Counted from the first letter of the stretch, positions 10,300-36,296 are shown. The stretch is 64,000 bases of DNA from Terriglobia bacterium (GCA_020073015.1 JAIQFZ010000012.1:1-64000); one strand, 5' to 3'. The notes: generated by a model not told the origin, from the sequence alone. Made by a program: numbers and translations.

Positions 10300-12717
10300 T
10301 CAGTGATCAGCCGCCGCCAAGAACTTCTTCTGGCACGCTTCCGCTGCCGTCAGTATTTTCCGGAACTCCGGATCCGTTTGCACCCCCGAAAGCAGCGGAT
10401 CCGCCTGCAGCGCCTGGTACGCGCAATATTTCTCGTCCACCGCCTTTGCCAGGAATTTGTAGGCAAGCTCCTTCTCGCCGCAGGCCGCCAGCAATGCTCC
10501 CTGATAGTACTTCAGCTCCGAATCCGTTTCCGGCAATAAATCGATCTGCGCCAACTCCGCCAGCCGGTGAACTTCCGTCGCCGGGGCCTTGTTCAGGCAC
10601 GCCTGCAGGAAATCTCGCATCCAGATTAGATTCGCGGTCATTCTCAGGGTGGCCTGCCGCGCCTCTCCCATCCTGCCCTCGCGCATCAGCACCGACACCA
10701 TGACCGAGTTCGACCACTCCGACCCCGCATCCTTATTCAGATACTGCTTGGCCCACGACATTTTGCCTGCTTCAAAAAATGCGAACGAACACGAGCGCCA
10801 GTTGTAGTTCCCCGGATCAATGGCCGCCGCGGCATCGCATTCCTTTTGCGCTTCCTGCAGCAACCCCGCGTACCGCAGCACGTAGGCCAGCGAGTAGTGT
10901 GCGAACGCATTGTCCGGACGCCGTTTTACCAGCTCCCGCGCGTCGGCATACGCCTTGTCGAGGTTGCCGGCCTCCACCTCGTTGGCGGCCAGGAAGCCGG
11001 CGGCGCTCGCCCGGCCCGGTTCCAGGCTCAGCGCGCGCTGGTAGGCCGCATTCGAGTGTTGGTAGCCCGACGCACCCCCTCCCGAATAGATCGCGTCGAA
11101 GTAATACCGCCGCCCCAGCGCCTCCCAGGCCGGCGCATAATTCGGGTCGAGCCCCACCGACCGTTCCAACATGGCGATCGCTTCCTTGTTCGCGGCGCCA
11201 TCGTGCGGAATCGAAGCTGTGCGCAGGTACAGGTCATAGCCAGTGCTGTTGGCGGGCGCGCTGCAAGCTTCCAGCGCCCTGCTCTCCACGCCCAGCGCCG
11301 GCAGCAGTTCCTCACGAACTTTCTTGGCCATCTGGTTCTGCAGGGCGATCAGATTTTCCGCGGGCGCAGTCAGCGTTCCCGTCCACATCAGCCGGTTATC
11401 CTTCACCTGCACCGCTTCCAGTGTGACCGTCACCATTTTGTCTTGCCGCAAGAAGTGCCCCGCCACCACCGTGCCCACGCGCAATTCGCGCCCGATCTTC
11501 CCCGGGTCGGCCTCGCCATTGCTGTACTTCCGGGTCGATGCCGAGGGCCGGATCTCCAGCGTTCGCGCATAGGTCAGCGCATTGGCAATTTCGTCGGCCA
11601 GCGCAAAGCGCAGAAACTCGTTCTCCGAATCGTTCTTGATGTTCTCGAGCGGCAACACCGCGATCGTGTGGTTGCTCGCCTGCACCGTCCCGCCCGGAAT
11701 CCGGTGCTTGAACCACCACGCCCCAACCGACACCAGCACCGTCACCAGCACCGCCGCTAATCCGAGGATGACCCAATTCAGCTTCGGGTTCGCGGTCTGA
11801 AACGTGCGCGTGCCCACGCGCAGCGGCATCGCCGAATGCATCCCGGTCCGCACATGTCCCGACTCCGCTTCCTTCTTCAGCCGCTGCAGATCCTCTTTCA
11901 TTTCGGAAGCGTTCTGGTAGCGCTGGTCGCGGTCCTTCTCCATCGCCCTCCCGATGATGTCGCCGAGTGCGGTCGGAAGCTCCCGGTTCAGGGAGAGGGG
12001 TGAAGGGGGCTTGGTATGGATCACCGCATGCAGCGTCGTCACCACATTCGATCCGGTGAAGGGCTTCTTGCCCGTGCCCATTTCGTACAGCACTACGCCG
12101 AACGAAAAGATATCGCTGCGCACATCCAGGTCTTCCGAGCGCGCCTGTTCCGGCGACATGTACACCGCGGTTCCCGGAATCACTCCCACCTGCGTGAGCG
12201 ACTCCTCGAGCGACGAATCCGTGCTGGTGCCGGCTTTGTCTTTCGCCAGCTTCGCCAGCCCGAAATCAAGAATCTTCACCTGCCCGCCCGGCGTCAGAAA
12301 AATATTGGCCGGCTTGATGTCGCGATGCACGATCCCCTTGGCATGCGAAGCCGAGAGCGCGTCCGCGACCTGCACCGCGATATCCAGCAGTTGCTCGATG
12401 TCCATCGCCTGGCCGTGGATGCGCTGTTTCAGGCTCTCGCCTTCCAGCTTCTCCATGACGATGAAGGGCTGCCCGTTGTTGTCCTGGATGTCGTGAATCG
12501 TGCAGATGTTGGGATGGTTGAGCAGCGACGCGGCCCGTGCCTCGCGCGAAAAACGCTCCAGCGATTTTGCATCGCCCGCGAGATGTTCCGGGATGAACTT
12601 CAGGGCAACGTGCCGGCCCAGCCGCGTGTCCTCGGCCTCATAAACCACGCCCATCCCACCCCCACCCAGCTTCGACAGGATGTGGTAATGCAATACCGTC
12701 TGCCCAATCAAGTCCAT
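10300..12717 (-). CDS. Serine/threonine protein kinase with C-terminal TolB/FlgO-like and TPR region
   Basis: [65 protein letters not shown]; one TM then [13 protein letters not shown]..., TPR-like C-terminus. Confidence 0.93.
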
Positions 12718-12855
12718 GGTGTGTGGCGGCCGCCCTCGCCCGCGTAGCAAGAAGACCCGTGCGGGGGAAGCGTAAATGTTAGGCTGTCAGCACTTTCGGG
12801 TCAAATGCAGCCATTCGCAGCAACATGCGGGCGCCTCCGCGCGCATTGTGAGAAG

Positions 12856-12871
12856 TGTTCCACGTGGAACA
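12856..12871. promoter_or_regulatory. Perfect 16-bp palindrome TGTTCCACGTGGAACA, candidate ParB-binding parS site
   Basis: Exact match to the parS type known from Pseudomonas; lies in the intergenic region between two kinase genes. Confidence 0.65.
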
Positions 12872-12997
12872 TTATACTAACCATAATGTACGTATGTCAC
12901 TATACCTACAGGGAGTTCTACGTAGAAGACGCACAACGAGTTATGGCCTCCCGGCGAGTACTTCCCTTTGCGATGTGCAGTTGTGACGCTGACCGTA

Positions 12998-13017
12998 CGC
13001 GGGCAGGAATGCCCGCG
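12998..13017. repeat. Short hairpin repeat CGCGGGCA-ggaa-TGCCCGCG
   Basis: 8-bp perfect arms; same type as 23568-23589; abuts 3' end of the second kinase gene. Confidence 0.6.
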
Positions 13018-13026
13018 CCACACTTG

Positions 13027-15441
13027 CTACGGGGTGGTGGAGGCCGCCGAGAGCATGGCCGCCTGGCATGCACTGGCCGCCGTCAGCACCTCGCTGAAGG
13101 CCGGGCGGGCACGCAGTTTGGCGAGCAGTGGGTCGTTGAGCAGATTGGAGTGGGCGCAATAGTTCTGCTGGACGGCGCTGCGCAACATGTGGAGCGCCGC
13201 CTGATCTTTGCCCGCATAGCCCAGCAACGCTCCCTGGTAGTACCAGAGCTCCGGGTCGGGATCGCTGGGCTGCGTGGTCTCGGCCTCCTGCGCGATGTGG
13301 TCCAACTCCGAGGAGGGCCGCAGCTGGAGGATACCTTCCCACAGAGTGCGGTGATAGCGAGGGTTCGACGGCATGTGCTTCACCGCCTCGCGCGCTTCCG
13401 CAACTTTGCCCTCGCGCAGAAGAATCGAGGGCAGAACATAGGCCGCCCACTCCGAGCCTGCATCCAGCCGGACATAGTCGAGGGCCCGCTGGGTCTTGCC
13501 CTGTTCCATGAAGGCCCAGGCGCAGGAGCGGAAGGTGTAATTCTGCGGGTCCAGGGCCAGCGCGGTATCGCATTCGTTCGCCGAGCGCTCCAGCATCCCG
13601 GCATAGCGGAGCACATACCCCATGACGAAATGGGCCCGGGCACTTTCCGGACGCCGCTTCACAAGCTCTTGCGCCGCTTGATAGGCCTTGCCTAGTTCCC
13701 CGCGTTCGACGCGGTTGGTGATCAGTTGTCCGGCGGCGTCGATTCGGTTGGGATCGAGTGCCAGCGCCCGTTCGCAAGCCTTGTTGGAACGCTGGAACAT
13801 CGGTTCTCCGCCGTCCGAGTACTCCGCATCGTAGTGGGTTCGCACGCCCAGCTGCTCCCACGCGGGTGCGTAGTTCGGGTCCATTCCCACGACGTGCTCC
13901 AGCACTGCGATGGCGTCCTTGTTCGGCTGCGGATCATGCGGCAGGGCGAGGCTATGCAGGTAGAGATCGTAGGCCTCCGGGTCCTTAGGCCGCGTTCCGG
14001 TATCGAGGAACCCTCCGGCCGCGCCGAGGGCGGGGAGCAATTCCTGGCGCATTTTGGTCGCGATTTGGGTCTGCACGGCGATCAGATCCTGGGCGGGTGC
14101 GGTGACGTTGGCTTGCCACAACAGGCGATTGCTGTCCACCTGAATGGCTTCCAGGGTAATCAGCAAACCGTCTCCCTGCTTCAGGAAGTGCCCGGTCAAG
14201 ACGTTGGCGACGCGCACTTCCCGGCCCACGGCCTGCGGATCGACGTCGTTCCCAACATACTTCCGGGTAAGGGACGAGGGGCGGACGTCGAGCGTGCGGG
14301 TGTAGGTGAGCACGTTGGCAATTTCATCGGCGAGGGCGAAGCGCAGAAATTCCACGCTGATGTCGCCGTTCATGTTCTGCAGCGGCAGCACGGCCACGGT
14401 GTTCTTCGGCGCGCCTGCGCCCATCCCCGGACGGTGCTTGAACCACCAGGCTCCCACCGGTACCAGCAGCGTGACCAGCAACAAGATGATCCCCAACAGG
14501 ATGTAGGTCTGCTTTTTGCTCGCGGTCTGGAAGGTGGTCGTGGCGAGGCGGTAGGGCAGGACAGGGCGCTTCGCGCCGGTCTTGGTTAATCCCGACTCCG
14601 TTTCCTTTTTCAGCGACTGCAGATCGCCCCGGAGCGCGATGGCGTTGGGGTAGCGGTTGCCCCTGTTCTTCTCCATTGCGCGCCCGATGATGCCCTCCAG
14701 ATCCGGTGGAAGAGAGGGGTTCAGTTGGCGCGGCGACACCGGCTTCTGGTTCAGGACTGAATCGAGCGTGGTCACCACGTTGGCGCCCGAAAAAGGTTTC
14801 TTGCCGGTCGACATTTCGTAGAGCACCACGCCCAGCGAGAACAGGTCGCTGCGCGGATCGAGTTCTTCGCCGCGCGCCTGCTCGGGAGACATGTACACGG
14901 CCGTGCCCGGGATCACGCCAATGGCGGTCAGCGAGTCCTCCACCGGCGTCTCGTCGCTGGTGCCGAGCGCGCGCGACAGCTTGGCCAGTCCAAAGTCGAG
15001 GATCTTCGCCTGTCCGGTGGGAGTGATGAAAATGTTGGCTGGCTTGATGTCGCGATGAATGATTCCCTTGGCATGCGACGCGGCCAGCGCGTCCGCTACC
15101 TGGATCCCGATGTCGAGCAGTTCATCCACCGCGATCGCTTGCCCCCGGATGCGCTCCTTCAGGCTCGTCCCCTCCAGCTTTTCCATGACGATGAAGGGGT
15201 GCCCATCCATGTCCTGAATATCGTGGATGGTGCAGATGTTGGGATGGTTCAGCTGGGAGGCGGCGCGCGCCTCGCGGACAAAGCGGTCCAGGGACTTGGC
15301 GTCTTTCGCCAGGTTCTCGGGGATGAACTTCAGAGCGACGTGGCGGCCCAGGCGCGTGTCCTGCGCCTCGTACACTACCCCCATGCCACCCCCACCGAGC
15401 TTGCCCAGAATGTGATAGTGGGAAACTGTCTGGCCGATCAT
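13027..15441 (-). CDS. Serine/threonine protein kinase, paralog of the 10300-12717 gene
   Basis: [50 protein letters not shown], same architecture as neighbour throughout. Confidence 0.93.
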   Translation of the reverse strand: MIGQTVSHYHILGKLGGGGMGVVYEAQDTRLGRHVALKFIPENLAKDAKSLDRFVREARAASQLNHPNICTIHDIQDMDGHPFIVMEKLEGTSLKERIRGQAIAVDELLDIGIQVADALAASHAKGIIHRDIKPANIFITPTGQAKILDFGLAKLSRALGTSDETPVEDSLTAIGVIPGTAVYMSPEQARGEELDPRSDLFSLGVVLYEMSTGKKPFSGANVVTTLDSVLNQKPVSPRQLNPSLPPDLEGIIGRAMEKNRGNRYPNAIALRGDLQSLKKETESGLTKTGAKRPVLPYRLATTTFQTASKKQTYILLGIILLLVTLLVPVGAWWFKHRPGMGAGAPKNTVAVLPLQNMNGDISVEFLRFALADEIANVLTYTRTLDVRPSSLTRKYVGNDVDPQAVGREVRVANVLTGHFLKQGDGLLITLEAIQVDSNRLLWQANVTAPAQDLIAVQTQIATKMRQELLPALGAAGGFLDTGTRPKDPEAYDLYLHSLALPHDPQPNKDAIAVLEHVVGMDPNYAPAWEQLGVRTHYDAEYSDGGEPMFQRSNKACERALALDPNRIDAAGQLITNRVERGELGKAYQAAQELVKRRPESARAHFVMGYVLRYAGMLERSANECDTALALDPQNYTFRSCAWAFMEQGKTQRALDYVRLDAGSEWAAYVLPSILLREGKVAEAREAVKHMPSNPRYHRTLWEGILQLRPSSELDHIAQEAETTQPSDPDPELWYYQGALLGYAGKDQAALHMLRSAVQQNYCAHSNLLNDPLLAKLRARPAFSEVLTAASACQAAMLSAASTTP

Positions 15442-15651
15442 CCGTGGGGCCTCGGACCCTCGCGGCGCTAATGTTAGGCCGTGCGCGGAGGCTGGGTCAA
15501 CCGCAAAGGGGGGCGCGGCACAACAATGCATGTCATGGACTGGACACAAAGGAGTGGAGCAGACTCGGTTGGTTTGGGGCAGAGGTCAGCCAGCCCTCAG
15601 AAAAAAAAGGAGGGAGCAGATGCCCCCTCCCGAACAAAAGAATCAACCAAA

Positions 15652-18600
15652 CTAGAACGTCAGCCTTAATGCCATCTGAATGAACCGACGCTCGTTGGGA
15701 GTCACGCCGTTTGCAAGGACGCCCCGCTGTCCCAAAACTTCGAAGTTCGGTGTGGGCGAATTGGCGAAATTGCCAAAATCCTGGGTTCCGCCCGCCTCGA
15801 CATAGTAGTTGGAGTGGTTCAACAGATTGTAGAACTCCGTACTAAACTGCAGCTTAAAGCGCTCCGTCAGCGGGAACTGCTTTCTGATCGCCAGGTTGAT
15901 ATTGTAGACTCCCGGTGCCCGGAACGCGTTGCGGCGCGTCATGTTGGACGGCCACTTGCAGTTTGTGCCGGTCGAGACAGTATTCCCGGCTGCGTTGGTC
16001 GTCGTGTCGCAGGTCGGCAACTCGCCTGAGCCTGTCAGGGGTTCAAAGTAGGTGGTGTCAGCCAAGGTAGTGCCATCCGGCGCTACCGTCGGCAGACTGA
16101 GGTAGTTGTAGATATTCGGCCCGGAGAAATCGACAGGTCCTTCGACGCCGGCGGGCACGTTGCTGGCGTTACCTGTGTAGTGAATGGTTGTGCCGGGAAC
16201 AATTTGGAAACGAGCGAAAGCGGTGTCGCCACCGAAACCGTTGAAGCTGTCGAATACGGTGAACGGGTTACCCGTGCGGGCGGTGATGATCGGGTCGAAT
16301 TCCCAGCCATCGAGGATCTGCTTGGCAATGCCATGGGTACTCTTGGCATAGGGCAAGGCCCAGACGGCGCTGATCGCGATCCGGTGCCGCGCGTCGAAGT
16401 CCGCATTGCCATAATCGAGGCTGGGCTGGAAGGGATCCAGCAAGCCCAAATTTTCGGTTTGCGGAGTTTCGCTGAACGTGGAGCTGAGGTTGTCCAGAGC
16501 GTGCGAGTAAGTGTAATTGATCGTAAGGTCGAGACCCTGTTTGAAGAGGTTACTCGATTGGAAACGGGCGTTCAGCGCGTTGTAGTGCGAATAGCCACCG
16601 AAACCTCGCGAGTTAATGTTGCCGTACTGGCGGTTCAGACGATCCAGGAAGCATTGGTGCAAAACCAATGTCGGGTCCGTACACTCTGGTGCAGCTTGGT
16701 CGGTTCCCAGATAGACGACACCCATGCCCTGCTGGTTGAGGTTCTCGATGGAATAGTCGTGAACGGTGTGGGCACCGGTGTACTCGAGCGCGAGCACCGA
16801 GCCCCTCAGGACCTCGCGCTGCAGCGAGAGGTTCCAACTCTGCGAATAGGACGTCGGGATATCCTGACGCACATAGCGCAGGCTGGGTGGCGGAAGCGGT
16901 ACCGATATGCCACTTCCGGCAAAGGGTCCCAGGTTGGTAGCATACAGCGCCTGAGGGTCTGAGGTACCTGGTAGGCCTGGGGTACCTGGAGCTATGCTGG
17001 TGCTCGAGAAGACGCTGTTGAACTGCGCGGGCGGGTTCTGGATCACGTTGAAGGTGACGTTGCCGAAGTTCCGCTCGTAGGCGATGCCGTAGCCGCCGCG
17101 CAGGGAAGTCTTGCCATCGCCGAAGACGTCATAGGCGAAACCAACACGAGGAGCGAAGTTGTGCTTGCTGGGTTCCCACAATCCACCCACAGGGCTCGCG
17201 GGACTATTGGGAGTAGCCGCAACGGTGAAGACTGCTCCGGTCGCCAACTTCTCTTGCAAAGTGCTCCCGGGACCAAAAACAAAATTCGAATCCAGTCTCG
17301 GATCCTTGTTGTGTTGTACGCCGTAGTACTCCCAGCGTAAGCCCAGGTTCAGCGTAAGCCGCGAAGTGAACTTCCACGTATCCTGCGCGTACACGGAACC
17401 ATCGTGATAGCGGTTGCTGCGCGAGAACGACGGCTGGACCGTCGGCAGGTCGATTGAGCAATCCGCCGTGACGATCACATTGTGAGCTGGATCGCGGAAA
17501 CACGGAAACTTGCCCTGGGGACTGACCACCACCTGGAAATATCCCGAGTTGGCATTCATCATGGAGTCCATACCAAATGCCAGACCGCCGCCCGTGCCGC
17601 CCCTTTCGAGCCCTTGTACGGCTTCTTCGTAGGCACCGAAGGTGCGATTATCACGAGTGTAGAGGTATTGGCCGCCAAATCGCAGCTCGTGCTTGCCGTG
17701 GTTCCAAGCCAGTGCTTGCCCAAACTGGATCACGTTTTGCGGACCACCGAAGGGAATGGAATTTCCAGGCGTCAGGCAGGAGTAACCCGGCAGGCAAGCG
17801 AGTTGGCCGGCGACGGCGGCAGCGGCTTGAACGTTGAGGTAGAGGGTTGGCTGCACCGGTTGCGTGCCGAGTGGCTGTTCCAGGTGGAGCCGGTTCAGGT
17901 TGAGCTTGGTATCACTGATCAGGTTCGGACTAAAGACGTGCGTAACGGAGAACAGCAGGTTCTGGTTGAGCTGTGTTTGTCCGCTGTCGAACCCGGCGTA
18001 GGGGCTGTTCTGGACGATCCCGTTGAACTCGTTCTGTTTGAACGCGGCATAGCGACCGTACAACGTGGTCTTATTTGTCAAGTTGAAGTCGACGCGCTGT
18101 ACCATATTCAGCGCATTCTGCGGATTGCCCCCGCCCGAATCGGACGGCGTCTGGTAGTTGACGAGATCAAACACGGGATTGTCGCCGCCATTCGCGGTAG
18201 TGTAAGCCGTGTAGGCCGCCGAAGGCGTGTATTTACCGACCACCGCAACCGGCACAGCACCCGCCTGTTGCGCGTTCAACTGGCTCAAAACTGTCACGCC
18301 TGAACGGAGACTAAATTGACCGAAATAGGCCTGAGTCGCCGGGTCCGAGGCCGCAATGAAGGCTGGGTCCGGAACCGCCACTTCCACGTTGGCTGCGCTG
18401 CGGATCCGGGTCCATTCCGTGTTGCTAAAGAAGAACAGCTTGTCCTTCACGATCGGGCCGCCCAGTGAGTAACCAAACTGGTTGCGCGTGTATTTCGCCT
18501 TTGGGACACCGTTGGCATTGCTGTTGTAGTCGTTTGAAGTCAACGCCGATACGCGATTGAATTCATAGAGGCTGCCGTGAAACGCGTTGCTGCCGGACTT

Positions 18601-19350
18601 GGTAACGACATTAATCACGCCGCCGGAGGCGCGTCCGTATTCGGCTGAAAAGTTATTGCTGGTGACGCTGTACTCGGAAACCGAATCCAGGGGAACCGCC
18701 TGACCAACTTTGGTCGTGTACAGGTCGACGTTCTCTCCGCCATCCAACAGAGCGTCGGTGCTGGCGGAACGCTGGCCGTTAATCGATACCCCAGCGCCAC
18801 GAACAATCTGGTCCGACCCACCCGTGCCGGAAGCGGAATCCTGATTGACATTGCCCATCGTCTGGACGAAGTCATAGGGGTCACGCGTCAGGCTAGGCAG
18901 TCGTGAGACTTGCGCCTGGCTGACCGTTTGACTAATCGCGGACGTTTGAGTATCCACCTGGGTTGCGTTCTGGGCGACGACTTCGATCGTTTCGCCAGTC
19001 GCTTTTGGCTCGAGCTTCACGTCGAGTACGAGGCGTCCACCCGGGGTGACGGTCGCTCTCTGCTTGTAGGCTCCAAAGCCCTTTTGGGAAATAGCGACAT
19101 CGTAAGCGCCTGGCAGCAACGCCGAAACCACGTAGCCTCCTTGAGCGTCTGACGTTGCCGTTCGAACGGCCGCGGTGTCCACGGAGGTGACCGTGACCTC
19201 CGCTCCGACGACGACCGCTCCGCTTGCGTCTGTCACGGTGCCTGCAACGGTGCCCTTCTCGAACTGGGCAAAAGCCCAGGCGGAAAGAATCGCCAGAGTC
19301 GCTAGCAGGAGAATGCACTTTTCCAATCCTGCATGTAAGTTAATTCGCAT
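15652..19350 (-). CDS. TonB-dependent receptor with N-terminal carboxypeptidase-regulatory-like domain (Oar-like)
   Basis: FEKGTVAGTVTDASGAVVVGAEVTVTSVDTAAVRTATSDAQGGYVVSALLPGAYDV, plug SINGQRSASTDALLDGGENVD, C-terminal beta-barrel ending RRFIQMALRLTF. Confidence 0.9.
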   Translation of the reverse strand: MRINLHAGLEKCILLLATLAILSAWAFAQFEKGTVAGTVTDASGAVVVGAEVTVTSVDTAAVRTATSDAQGGYVVSALLPGAYDVAISQKGFGAYKQRATVTPGGRLVLDVKLEPKATGETIEVVAQNATQVDTQTSAISQTVSQAQVSRLPSLTRDPYDFVQTMGNVNQDSASGTGGSDQIVRGAGVSINGQRSASTDALLDGGENVDLYTTKVGQAVPLDSVSEYSVTSNNFSAEYGRASGGVINVVTKSGSNAFHGSLYEFNRVSALTSNDYNSNANGVPKAKYTRNQFGYSLGGPIVKDKLFFFSNTEWTRIRSAANVEVAVPDPAFIAASDPATQAYFGQFSLRSGVTVLSQLNAQQAGAVPVAVVGKYTPSAAYTAYTTANGGDNPVFDLVNYQTPSDSGGGNPQNALNMVQRVDFNLTNKTTLYGRYAAFKQNEFNGIVQNSPYAGFDSGQTQLNQNLLFSVTHVFSPNLISDTKLNLNRLHLEQPLGTQPVQPTLYLNVQAAAAVAGQLACLPGYSCLTPGNSIPFGGPQNVIQFGQALAWNHGKHELRFGGQYLYTRDNRTFGAYEEAVQGLERGGTGGGLAFGMDSMMNANSGYFQVVVSPQGKFPCFRDPAHNVIVTADCSIDLPTVQPSFSRSNRYHDGSVYAQDTWKFTSRLTLNLGLRWEYYGVQHNKDPRLDSNFVFGPGSTLQEKLATGAVFTVAATPNSPASPVGGLWEPSKHNFAPRVGFAYDVFGDGKTSLRGGYGIAYERNFGNVTFNVIQNPPAQFNSVFSSTSIAPGTPGLPGTSDPQALYATNLGPFAGSGISVPLPPPSLRYVRQDIPTSYSQSWNLSLQREVLRGSVLALEYTGAHTVHDYSIENLNQQGMGVVYLGTDQAAPECTDPTLVLHQCFLDRLNRQYGNINSRGFGGYSHYNALNARFQSSNLFKQGLDLTINYTYSHALDNLSSTFSETPQTENLGLLDPFQPSLDYGNADFDARHRIAISAVWALPYAKSTHGIAKQILDGWEFDPIITARTGNPFTVFDSFNGFGGDTAFARFQIVPGTTIHYTGNASNVPAGVEGPVDFSGPNIYNYLSLPTVAPDGTTLADTTYFEPLTGSGELPTCDTTTNAAGNTVSTGTNCKWPSNMTRRNAFRAPGVYNINLAIRKQFPLTERFKLQFSTEFYNLLNHSNYYVEAGGTQDFGNFANSPTPNFEVLGQRGVLANGVTPNERRFIQMALRLTF

Positions 19351-19694: not shown

Positions 19695-20888
19695 TCAGCC
19701 GGTACCGCTCACGAGCGCTGCCGACGATCCTACCCACTGCATGTTCTTGTTGTGATCTACGCCCATCATCAGGCCGCGGCCCATGCGGACCACGGTCAGC
19801 ACCGGGACTAGTTTATCGAGCCAGATATACATGATGCGCAGTTCGACTTTTGTCCAGCCGTACGGCGTCTCTACTACCGGGGTGAAATTTAGCCGCTCCT
19901 GAAGAATGTATTCGCTGCGCTTCGCCGGCGGAATCGCGTCTAGATCGTTGCGCTTCGGGGCAATGGCCACGCCTAACCCCGCGAACGAATAGAGCGGCTT
20001 CAGCACAAAGTGTTCGAGATCCGCCGGCACTTCCTTCAGTTGATCCAGAAACCACGTGCGCGGCACCGACTCATGCTTCAAATAAGGAATGGAATATTTG
20101 CTGATCCGGAAATACCAGTTGGGATGCCCCGCCCACTCGACATCCAGCTCATCGCGGAAATCAAACGGCAGCGCGATGCCCTTGCGCTCCAGTTCATCGA
20201 CGATCGTCCGGTTATAGATGCGCGCAATCGGGACCCGTTGGCCGCCCTCCTCATAAAACAGCCGGCGGCCTTCTTTGCGAATCTTCGTGATGCACACGGT
20301 GCGAATGCCGAGCAGTTTTTCGGTCAGCAGGAAATCCGGACGCGTTTTCTGCTCCTCTGGATGGATTTCCATCAGCACCACGTTCGCCGGATCGTGTCCC
20401 GCGACAATCGCATCCTGCAGAAGCCGCTTGTAGGAAGCCGCGTCTAGCCCGCTCAAGAAATAGCCAAGCTTCGGGTCCAGACCGAACACGTCCATGTAAG
20501 CCTGCGCCAATACCGGCTGATACGCGTAGAGAGAAGGGAAGGCCTGCAACTCAACCAGCTTCGGCTGCAGTTCGCCGGCAGCGTCGCGCACGAGACCAAA
20601 ATCCACTTGCACAAACATCGGATGCGCCGCTTCGTTTGGGACGCGGAACTGAACGGGAATCGAAGCCTGCGAGCGCGCGCGATAGTCGGGGTTCTCCACC
20701 AGCTGGCGGATCAGCGTCTTGCCGTCTTCGCCCATGCGCTCCACCAGCGCTGCTGGGAAAAAGCAAGGCGTCTCGCAGAGCGCGAAGGGAACCTCCATCC
20801 CGCAGCGCGTGGTCAGTTCGCGGCGTAGCTGCTGGTATTTTTCAGAGGTAAAGCCCGCGTTGAAGGCTTGTCGATAAGAAGGAATCAT
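19695..20888 (-). CDS. ATP-grasp-like protein of unknown function
   Basis: 397 aa; C-terminal HFVLKPLYSFAGLGVAIAP...YILQERLNFTPVVETPYGWTKVELRIMYIWLDKL resembles ATP-grasp nucleotide-binding segments; adjacent to GCS2 ligase and M29 peptidase genes. Confidence 0.6.
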   Translation of the reverse strand: MIPSYRQAFNAGFTSEKYQQLRRELTTRCGMEVPFALCETPCFFPAALVERMGEDGKTLIRQLVENPDYRARSQASIPVQFRVPNEAAHPMFVQVDFGLVRDAAGELQPKLVELQAFPSLYAYQPVLAQAYMDVFGLDPKLGYFLSGLDAASYKRLLQDAIVAGHDPANVVLMEIHPEEQKTRPDFLLTEKLLGIRTVCITKIRKEGRRLFYEEGGQRVPIARIYNRTIVDELERKGIALPFDFRDELDVEWAGHPNWYFRISKYSIPYLKHESVPRTWFLDQLKEVPADLEHFVLKPLYSFAGLGVAIAPKRNDLDAIPPAKRSEYILQERLNFTPVVETPYGWTKVELRIMYIWLDKLVPVLTVVRMGRGLMMGVDHNKNMQWVGSSAALVSGTG

Positions 20889-20932
20889 GGAATAGAGGGG
20901 CCAGGTCTCGGATGCGGCCAGTTTTACAATTT

Positions 20933-21052
20933 GTCATCCCGCCCCTGAGCATCGCGAAGTCAAATACATAGGTCCTTCGCTTCGCTCAGGATGACAGCTC
21001 AAATTTATGACAGTTCAAATGTATGCCCCGAACTTGCGGGACACCACGCTAG
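20933..21052. repeat. Interspersed repeat 'gtcatcctgagcgaagcgaaggacct' type, copy 1
   Basis: gtcatccc...ataggtccttcgcttcgctcaggatgaca, then gaacttgcgggacaccacgctag; both modules shared with 36182-36296. Confidence 0.75.
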
Positions 21053-21067
21053 TCCCGAGCGCTATGA

Positions 21068-22117
21068 TCACGCTTCGATCAAGAACTGCCCGCCGCGCAT
21101 GATCTGTTCGTTGTCGACCCAGATATCGAAATTCCGTCCGACCACATCGATATGGGTTGACGAGTACCACTCTGCCCCGGTGTGCGCCCCATACGGGTTT
21201 CCGAAGGCGATGTGTACGCCCGGGTACTTCTCATCCTGCAGAATCTGGCCGATTACGTCTTTCAACTCGATGTTCGTGCCAATGGCGAACTCGCCTACAC
21301 GATCGCTGTTCTCGTCGGTATGCGTGTACGCCCAGAAATCACTTTCCAGTTCCTTATTCTCGGAATGCACCTCGACCACGCGATTCCCCTTCACCCGAAT
21401 CGTCAGAGGATTCGCTTTCAGGTCGCCAAACTTTGCGCACAAATAATCCCCCACCACGCCGTCGATCACAAACGTGCCGTTGACTTCTCCCGGAGTCGTG
21501 AAGACCTCGCCACCCGGCAAATTTCCCCACTTCTCAGTGCTGATAATGCCGGAGGTTTTGATCCAGCGGTAATTCGGATTCAAATCCGCCACCAGATCGG
21601 TTCCCGAGGGCGTCTTCGCGCGGACTTGCTTGGCTACTCGCAAACGCTCGACAACCTTGGCGCTCAACCGGTCCACTTTCTGGAAATCGGCGCGCATGCC
21701 TTCGAGCATGATCTGCTTATTGATGTTGACCATGTGTGCGTGCCGGATCTTGCGCCGGTTCACAATGTCAGTCATCTGCATGCGCGATTTCAGTTCATTG
21801 GTCTGCGCCTGCACGGCAAAAATGCTGACCTGGCTGGTCTCCAGATCCTCCGCAATTACACGTGGCATGTCCGTGAGCGGGCGCGTCGCCACCTCCTCCA
21901 GCACCCAGGATTGATAGCGGCATCCTACGTTCTCCAGTTCGCGCACCAGCGCGGCGGCGATCTCCAGGCTCACTTCGTCGGTAATGACAGTGACTTTTTC
22001 CGTGGGCTGCACGCGCAAGCATACACGCACTGCATTCTGTGCACCGGGCGTGAGTTCCGGATCGAATGCCAGCTGATTCAGTTGTCGTTTGGATGGTTCT
22101 GCGGTCCTCAAACTCAT
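21068..22117 (-). CDS. M29 family aminopeptidase (AmpS/aminopeptidase T-like)
   Basis: NVGCRYQSWV..., DLVADLNPNYRW, GEVFTTPGEVNGTFVIDGVVGD, HIAFGNPYGAHTGAEWYSSTHIDVVGRN metal-ligand region. Confidence 0.85.
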   Translation of the reverse strand: MSLRTAEPSKRQLNQLAFDPELTPGAQNAVRVCLRVQPTEKVTVITDEVSLEIAAALVRELENVGCRYQSWVLEEVATRPLTDMPRVIAEDLETSQVSIFAVQAQTNELKSRMQMTDIVNRRKIRHAHMVNINKQIMLEGMRADFQKVDRLSAKVVERLRVAKQVRAKTPSGTDLVADLNPNYRWIKTSGIISTEKWGNLPGGEVFTTPGEVNGTFVIDGVVGDYLCAKFGDLKANPLTIRVKGNRVVEVHSENKELESDFWAYTHTDENSDRVGEFAIGTNIELKDVIGQILQDEKYPGVHIAFGNPYGAHTGAEWYSSTHIDVVGRNFDIWVDNEQIMRGGQFLIEA

Positions 22118-23268
22118 CAGACGGCCTTGGCGGTGGGCAAACTTTTGGCTTCGTCCACGCCCACCTCAGTCTCCTCGATAATGTAGTCCACCACGGCTTT
22201 CATGTCGCCCGTGTCGCGGAAGACGCGCAGTTGGCGGTCGGCGCCCGTGCCCATCTTCATGATCTCGCGGACGTACTCGACTTCCTCCCGGCTATTCAGT
22301 TCGTCGAGCACGTCATCGACGAATTCGAGATACTCTTCGATCAGCTGGCGCTCGGGAACCTCCATCTGCTTGCCGAAGTCGATGAGCTTGCCGTCGATCC
22401 CGTAACGCGCCGCCCGCCACTTGTTTTCCATCAGCAGGGAGCGGCGGTAGAGGCGGAATCCCTGATTGGCCGAGTAGAGCTTGTAGAGCTTGACCACCGT
22501 GGCCTGAATCAGCGCCGCCAGCGCAATCGTCTCCTCGACTCGCATCGGGATGTCGCAGACGCGGAATTCGAGGGTGTTGAAGAATGGATGGGGCCGGATG
22601 TCCCACCAGATCTTTTTCGCGTTATCGATCGAGTTGGTCTTGATCAGCAGCTTCACGTAATTGTCGTACTCGCCCCAGCTGGGGAAGTAGTCCGGCATGT
22701 TGGTGCGCGGGAACTTGTCGAACACTTTGCAGCGATACGATTTCAGTCCCGTGTCCATGCCCAGCCAGAAGGGAGAATTCGACGACAAGGCCAGCAGGTG
22801 CGGCACAAAATAGCGCGCGTGATTCATCAGGTGGATGGCCGTCTCGCGGTCTTCGATTCCCACATGCACGTGCAGTCCGAAGATCAGGTTCGCGCGCGCG
22901 ACCAGTTGCAGGTCCTCCACAATGTTCTTGTAGCGCTCGTCCGGGGTGACTTCCTGCACGCGCCAATCCGCAAAGGGATGCGTGGCCGCCGAAGCCAGCC
23001 GCAGCCCGTTCTCGCGCGACAGGCGAATCATGTCGCGGCGCAGCTTCTTCAACTCGTCCTTGGCCTCTTTGATATTGGCGCAGACGGATGTGCCGACTTC
23101 GACGACCGACTGGTGCATCTCCGCCTTCACGCGTTCCTGCAGCAGTAACCTGCCCTTCTCGATGATCTCGGCGTGTATGTGCGAGCGGAGGTCCCGGGTA
23201 TCCGGGTCGACCGTCTGGTACTCCTCTTCAATCCCGAGTGTGAAAGTTGGCCTCATCGCGACACCCAT
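22117..23268 (-). CDS. Carboxylate-amine ligase, GCS2/YbdK family (glutamate-cysteine ligase type 2-like)
   Basis: TFTLGIEEEYQTVDPDTRDL; LHVHVGIEDRETAIHLMNHARYFVPHLLALSSNSPFWLGMDTGLKSYR; TGA stop overlaps ATG of the downstream gene (TGATG). Confidence 0.9.
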   Translation of the reverse strand: MGVAMRPTFTLGIEEEYQTVDPDTRDLRSHIHAEIIEKGRLLLQERVKAEMHQSVVEVGTSVCANIKEAKDELKKLRRDMIRLSRENGLRLASAATHPFADWRVQEVTPDERYKNIVEDLQLVARANLIFGLHVHVGIEDRETAIHLMNHARYFVPHLLALSSNSPFWLGMDTGLKSYRCKVFDKFPRTNMPDYFPSWGEYDNYVKLLIKTNSIDNAKKIWWDIRPHPFFNTLEFRVCDIPMRVEETIALAALIQATVVKLYKLYSANQGFRLYRRSLLMENKWRAARYGIDGKLIDFGKQMEVPERQLIEEYLEFVDDVLDELNSREEVEYVREIMKMGTGADRQLRVFRDTGDMKAVVDYIIEETEVGVDEAKSLPTAKAV

Positions 23269-24711: not shown

Positions 24712-25251
24712 ATGCCCGCTCCCACTCCTGAATTTGCCGCAACCTACTGCCAGATGATGCTCGAGGGCCTAGCCAATGAAGTCGAGATCACCAAGCGCGT
24801 CCTGGCTGCCGTCCCCGAAAGCACGTGCGACGGCTATCGTCCCGACCCGCACGCCCGCAACGGACGGGAACTTGCCTGGCACATCGCCAACAGCGATATC
24901 CAGTTTCTCGACGGCATCGCCGACTTGAAGTTCAACATGTCGACGCCGGAAAGCGCCGACAAGCCCAAAACGATTGCCGAGATCGTCACCTGGTACGACC
25001 GGAATTTCAAGCGGGCCGCCGATCGCGTGCGCGCGCTCTCGCCGGAGCAGTTGATGACGCCGATTGATTTCTTCGGTGTTTTTAACCTGCCGGCAGCGTT
25101 CTATCTCGGATTCCTCAACAATCACTGCATCCATCATCGCGGCGAGTTGGCTACCTATCTGCGCCCCATGGGATCAAAAGTACCCAACATTTACGGCGGA
25201 AGTTACGACGAACCCTGGCAGCCGGCAGACGCTGAAACCACCGCTGCCTGA
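24712..25251 (+). CDS. DinB family protein
   Basis: ELAWHIANSDIQFLDGIAD...FYLGFLNNHCIHHRGELATYLRPMGSKVPNIYGGSYDEP. Confidence 0.8.
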   Translation: MPAPTPEFAATYCQMMLEGLANEVEITKRVLAAVPESTCDGYRPDPHARNGRELAWHIANSDIQFLDGIADLKFNMSTPESADKPKTIAEIVTWYDRNFKRAADRVRALSPEQLMTPIDFFGVFNLPAAFYLGFLNNHCIHHRGELATYLRPMGSKVPNIYGGSYDEPWQPADAETTAA

Positions 25252-36132: not shown

Positions 36133-36181
36133 CCGATATTTCTCTGGATGTCAGGTTGCATACGGAGTGACACTACAGGTT

Positions 36182-36296
36182 GTCATCTTGAGCGAAGCGA
36201 AAGACCTATGCATTGTGCAGTCCAGTACACAGGTCCTTCGCTCGCTCAGGATGACAGGGTGGTTTTCTGCTGCGAACTTGCGGGACACCACACTAG
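36182..36296. repeat. Interspersed repeat 'gtcatcctgagcgaagcgaaggacct' type, copy 2
   Basis: gtcatcttgagcgaagcgaaagacctatg...acaggtccttcgctcgctcaggatgaca then gaacttgcgggacaccacactag. Confidence 0.8.

Follow-up and report, generated by a model that had tools for sequence, protein, structure and literature searches.

Three neighbouring genes in the genome of a Terriglobia bacterium raise the question of whether they belong to one pathway and, if so, what this pathway makes. They lie in the window, the whole stretch of 64,000 nucleotides that was analysed (GCA_020073015.1 JAIQFZ010000012.1:1-64000), and are transcribed in the order GCS2, M29 and ATPG (Table 1). A preliminary description had placed three same-strand genes at 19695-23268 and had taken them for a candidate uncharacterised peptide or amide pathway, in which a peptidase would process or recycle the product. 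The coordinates were confirmed, with all three genes on the minus strand, and such a pathway is still the reading that fits best, with reactions and a product that we infer.

Table 1. Cluster features in the window, listed in the direction of transcription
Feature	Position	Strand	Remark
GCS2, YbdK-type carboxylate-amine ligase, 383 aa	22117..23268	minus	transcribed first of the three window genes
Overlap of GCS2 stop and M29 start, TGATG	22115..22119	minus	plus strand reads CATCA
M29-family metallo-aminopeptidase-like protein, 349 aa	21068..22117	minus	occupies the hydrolase slot
M29-ATPG spacer, 179 bp	20889..21067	minus	interspersed repeat copy at 20974-20996
ATPG, 397 aa, modelled as a circularly permuted ATP-grasp ligase with glutathione-synthetase / YgiC fold	19695..20888	minus	

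The three genes of the window and the fold of the 397-residue protein

The overlap between GCS2 and M29, from which the preliminary description had concluded that the two genes are coupled, can be read directly in the sequence, and translational coupling is therefore likely. ATPG may be carried on a separate transcript, given the spacer and the repeat within it. This interspersed repeat, CCTTCGCTTCGCTCAGGATGACA, occurs in two copies in the window (20974-20996 and 36181-36203; pattern search, chance expectation 0). Upstream of the cluster, a gene for a DinB-family protein (24712-25251) adjoins ilvE, and its recurrence near the cluster was not seen elsewhere; DinB proteins include thiol S-transferases. 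Downstream (10300-15549 and 15652-19350) lie a tandem pair of Ser/Thr kinase-TPR genes and a large gene for an outer-membrane-receptor-like protein.

Profile searches bore out the family assignments made earlier for two of the three proteins. Over its full length, the GCS2 protein reached 220 bits with Pfam PF04107 (cut-off 21), 312 bits with TIGR02050 (cut-off 176) and 558 bits with the NCBIfam carboxylate-amine ligase model PRK13515, above the equivalog cut-off of 371, and its solved relatives are 1tt4 and 1r8g (YbdK; E about 1e-53). The M29 protein scored 65.9 bits with Pfam PF02073 (cut-off 27) and aligns with the aminopeptidase AmpS (1zjc). Six of its residues are invariant among eight homologues (E204, E276, H302, Y309, H322 and D324 in the numbering of that comparison), and the first four of these align with AmpS. 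In residue type, the six correspond to the metal ligands of AmpS (Glu, Glu, His, Tyr, His and Asp), and the metal-binding positions of the family are kept. Peptidase activity of the M29 protein is not certain, since proteins of the same fold include the dioxygenase NicX (7cn3).

The third protein reached no Pfam cut-off (best ATPgrasp_ST, 16.1 bits against 31.4), had no GSP_synth match in Pfam and no match among the NCBIfam models. Its earlier label as an ATP-grasp protein was thus a guess as far as sequence goes. A search of the PDB by sequence with the ATPG family gave chance-like best matches (a primase) and YgiC at E 0.6, and only the fold search was decisive. The AlphaFold2 model, calculated with 42 homologues from public genomes, has a pLDDT of 91.1 and a pTM of 0.91. 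Foldseek matched it to 20 PDB chains at E <= 1e-3, all of them permuted ATP-grasp ligases or their relatives, and ordinary ATP-grasps followed only at E > 0.04. The best matches were human GSS (E 5e-15), 3n6x (8.5e-14) and YgiC (8.5e-13); human, yeast and soybean glutathione or homoglutathione synthetases, nematode glutathione-synthetase-like proteins, YjfC, GspS, trypanothione synthetase and Cp1B were also found, 3n6x being annotated as a putative glutathionylspermidine synthase. TM-scores to these relatives were moderate (0.5-0.6), and ATPG is therefore regarded as a distant member of the permuted ATP-grasps. With this limit, the model confirmed the ATP-grasp fold predicted for the 397-residue protein and defined it as the circularly permuted type. 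The invariant residues of ATPG are K297, S301-F302-x-G304-x-G306, E113-x-Q115 and E349-x-R351. E113-x-Q115, a candidate metal-binding motif of the E-x-N type with Gln in place of Asn, lies ahead of K297 and does not vary among 43 sequences; by analogy with known members, this N-terminal motif, K297 and the S-F-x-G-x-G loop would be compatible with the permuted motif order.

A conserved five-gene set and its exchangeable positions

The set to which the three genes belong is conserved and has five members, three ATP-driven ligases and two hydrolases. The preliminary description covered only three of the five, as the remaining two lie elsewhere in the genome. One is EST, an alpha/beta hydrolase with an invariant Ser122/Asp197/His228 set. 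The other, ATPG2, is a second ATP-grasp, the model of which (pLDDT 88) is closest in fold to Ddl, ArgX/LysX and RimK, with a weakly RimK-like sequence (TIGR00768, E 1.8e-7, under the cut-off). Among 43 loci with all five genes, from which some near-duplicates had been removed, 40 have the usual order EST-ATPG2-GCS2-hydrolase-ATPG, with all genes on the same strand. A recurrent transporter or tailoring enzyme, which might have pointed to a substrate or product, was not seen in the loci.

In the genome of the window, each of the five genes is present in a single copy, and EST and ATPG2 are adjacent on another contig (C69). An assembly artefact was rejected as the cause of this split, since the contig with EST-ATPG2 is 212 kb long and holds the two genes in its middle, and GCS2-M29-ATPG lies inside one of 64 kb. 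EST and ATPG2 form one open frame of 606 aa there (L133 6736-8556, G000:C69), in which about 26 codons link the two. This fusion was discounted as functional evidence because a ribosome-binding-like AAGGAG precedes a GTG at the start of ATPG2, which may start on its own.

The set is also inherited together. In a scan of 199 Acidobacteriota genomes, the ATPG family was present in 24 (23 strong), accompanied by ATPG2 in 22 of 23 (Fisher test on presence and absence, 9e-14) and by GCS2 in 21 of 23 (4e-11); the corresponding values were 2e-21 for ATPG2 with GCS2 and 1e-12 for M29 with ATPG, and all of them overstate significance, because the genomes are related, a few species contributed two loci and the tests ignore shared ancestry. 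In the sole ATPG genome without ATPG2 (G151), GCS2 is broken and ATPG interrupted. Copies in decay were seen in this genome (L039, with a GCS2 fragment and ATPG split by a frame change) and at L076, where ATPG lies in two frames. In several genomes from the same family as that of the window, ATPG stands apart from the other genes, yet the full set is present. Another 12 genomes, many of them with an isolated ATPG, were picked from public loci, and ATPG2 was found in 11.

Two positions of the set can be occupied by different enzymes. The slot between GCS2 and ATPG contained M29 in 54 of 74 loci and a class-I GATase-like gene in 12, was empty in eight and never held any other gene. The GCS2 tree requires a minimum of four swaps between M29 and the GATase-like gene. 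The GATase-like protein matches PF00117 in Bacteroidota members, and Cys-His and His-Pro-Glu motifs are visible in one of them (P0007). As eight of the 74 slots are without any hydrolase, the hydrolase step would be dispensable or located elsewhere. In two loci (L028 13522-16196 and L242 8806-11517), the class-I GATase-like gene adjoins a PGM1/IQCH-type ATP-grasp (PF24923, PF18105), a further ligase attached to the five-gene system in some genomes.

The second exchange concerns ATPG itself. ATPG2 and GCS2 were found without ATPG in 23 genomes, and 22 of these encode CP2, a second permuted ATP-grasp family of 450 aa that matches PF14403/PF04174 and 3n6x and in several loci sits between ATPG2 and GCS2. 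Among 53 genomes with ATPG2, 20 had only ATPG, 26 only CP2, two both and five neither (p 4.5e-8), so that one or the other is present in 48. Profile comparison indicates that the two families are related (hhalign of ATPG family A1 against CP2, probability 93.5, E 2e-7, 184 columns), and E125-x-N127 of CP2 is assigned by analogy as the counterpart of E113-x-Q115. Paralogues of CP2, two or three per genome, occur in G051, G063, G096, G123, G149 and others. Unrelated or distant enzymes sharing one position suggest a shared step. M29 and the GATase-like protein would then be expected to cut one and the same bond, and ATPG and CP2 to form one and the same bond, so that fewer products come into question.

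A scan of the collection yielded more than 580 stretches encoding the ATPG family. Beyond the Acidobacteriota, ATPG was present in 92 of 297 genomes sampled from the phylum of an Ignavibacteriaceae genome, presumably Bacteroidota in the GTDB taxonomy; neighbouring genes with type IX secretion tails are consistent with this. In the Bacteroidota loci that were read, the gene order is unchanged and the hydrolase slot is mostly GATase-like. The neighbourhood is thus conserved outside the strain, across Acidobacteriota and Bacteroidota/Ignavibacteria; with this and the ATP-grasp fold of ATPG, both checks proposed in the preliminary description came out in its favour. Plasmid-borne spread was considered and rejected, as neither ATPG nor ATPG2 had a match in 72,556 plasmids, and so was an anti-phage or phage origin, with no PADLOC or PHROGs match.

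A proposed three-ligase relay and competing readings

GCS2 and ATP-grasp ligases activate a carboxylate as acyl phosphate and then join it to an amine. Characterised structural relatives of ATPG join the carboxylate of a peptide to glycine, beta-alanine or spermidine. Where operons link several peptide ligases, these often act in successive ligations (PMC4431377). On these three grounds, a three-step relay leading to a peptide amide is proposed: the five enzymes would assemble a small peptide-like amide, probably a gamma-glutamyl product, without the ribosome and then trim or recycle it. We consider this reading reasonably probable. GCS2 would activate a carboxylate, going by its family the glutamate gamma-carboxylate, and join it to an amine, ATPG2 as the RimK/Ddl-like ATP-grasp would add a second residue and ATPG would couple the carboxylate of the peptide to the final amino acid or amine. 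The slot hydrolase, M29 here and GATase-like elsewhere, would break an amide bond, either in the product or in an intermediate, and EST would act on an ester or acyl group. The order of these reactions and the nature of the product as a free metabolite are equally part of the proposal.

Other ways to read the set were weighed. The ligases might instead put a short peptide or poly-amino-acid tag on a protein, which M29 or the GATase-like hydrolase removes again. RimK attaches such a tag to S6, ATPG2 resembles RimK/LysX in fold and, weakly, in sequence, and an exchange of peptidases in one slot would suit tag removal. However, the loci show no recurrent gene for a small carrier or substrate protein, three ligases with different mechanisms are more in keeping with a defined small molecule than with a homopolymer, and the known relatives of the permuted ligase work on small peptides, which makes protein tagging unlikely. 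Transient gamma-glutamylation of the Puu or butirosin kind in amine or amino-acid metabolism, in which GCS2 or an ATP-grasp adds a Glu protecting group that the GATase-like protein or M29 takes off, is about as unlikely. The class-I GATase-like protein in the M29 slot of some loci is in line with it, as PuuD-type gamma-glutamyl hydrolases belong to the same class, but such a scheme needs fewer than three ligases, and no recurrent oxidase, dehydrogenase or aminotransferase to work on the protected amine was seen in the loci examined.

A glutathione-like thiol pathway, with gamma-Glu-Cys made by GCS2 and the last residue added by ATPG, would use the same pair of enzyme types, namely GCS2 and a ligase of the eukaryotic glutathione synthetase fold. 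It is nevertheless very improbable, as the GCS2 protein scored 68.5 bits with the cyanobacterial GshA equivalog gshA_cyano, far under the cut-off of 249, and ATPG2, EST and the hydrolase would be left unexplained. That the five genes are mere neighbours without shared function might be suspected from the split cluster in the window's genome and the 179 bp between M29 and ATPG; with an order conserved across phyla and genes that are inherited together even when apart, there is very little to be said for this, and it is the least probable reading of all.

The ligase relay with a peptide amide as its product is therefore preferred. ATPG was found in roughly one third of the sampled Bacteroidota and about one eighth of the Acidobacteriota genomes; from this spread, the compound, if made, would be a frequent one among bacteria of soil and water, although it has no name. 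More tentatively, and with rather less confidence than in the relay itself, the set might make an undescribed and widespread small metabolite or cofactor of the peptide type in Acidobacteriota and Bacteroidota, which three ligases of different structure would build and either of two unrelated hydrolases, interchangeable in one operon slot, would turn over. The context of the set likely gives a function to the 397-residue family, which is without a Pfam or NCBIfam model.

Comparison with known systems

Iyer et al. 2009 reportedly described operons in which amidoligases (ATP-grasp, COOH-NH2 ligase) are linked. Multi-ligase operons are a known class according to PMC4431377, which cites Iyer et al. 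2009. These operons likewise contain several peptide ligases of unrelated folds with peptidases nearby, and successive ligations are expected; the present set of EST, a Ddl/RimK-like ATP-grasp, GCS2, M29 or GATase and a permuted ATP-grasp is a specific combination. A full-text search of the literature returned no paper on this gene set, with Iyer et al. 2009 outside the comparison and an earlier mention there possible. No model for the NAGGN dipeptide osmolyte cluster was among the NCBIfam matches of the five proteins.

Glutathione and homoglutathione synthesis also proceeds through a GCS-type ligase followed by a permuted ATP-grasp of the glutathione-synthetase fold. However, the present set has a YbdK-type and not a GshA-type GCS2, a third ligase and two hydrolases, and sequence identity is only about 15%. 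YgiC/YjfC and the glutathionylspermidine and trypanothione synthetases have the permuted ATP-grasp fold in common with ATPG (7uk8, 7uk6, 2io7, 2vpm). YgiC and YjfC are cited in PMC12568646 as peptide-spermidine ligases of E. coli that join a peptide carboxylate to an amine, whereas ATPG is without a GSP_synth match and sits in a multi-ligase operon. In the E-64 pathway, the stand-alone ATP-grasp Cp1B takes part in NRPS-independent amide synthesis and has the fold of ATPG (9cjn; PMC12568646), but this pathway is fungal and has two ligases; it includes an amide bond synthetase together with a warhead oxygenase, neither of which is in the present set. RimK, LysX, ArgX and the D-Ala-D-Ala ligases, finally, share their fold with ATPG2, which differs from the RimK family in scoring under its cut-off and in having other partner genes.
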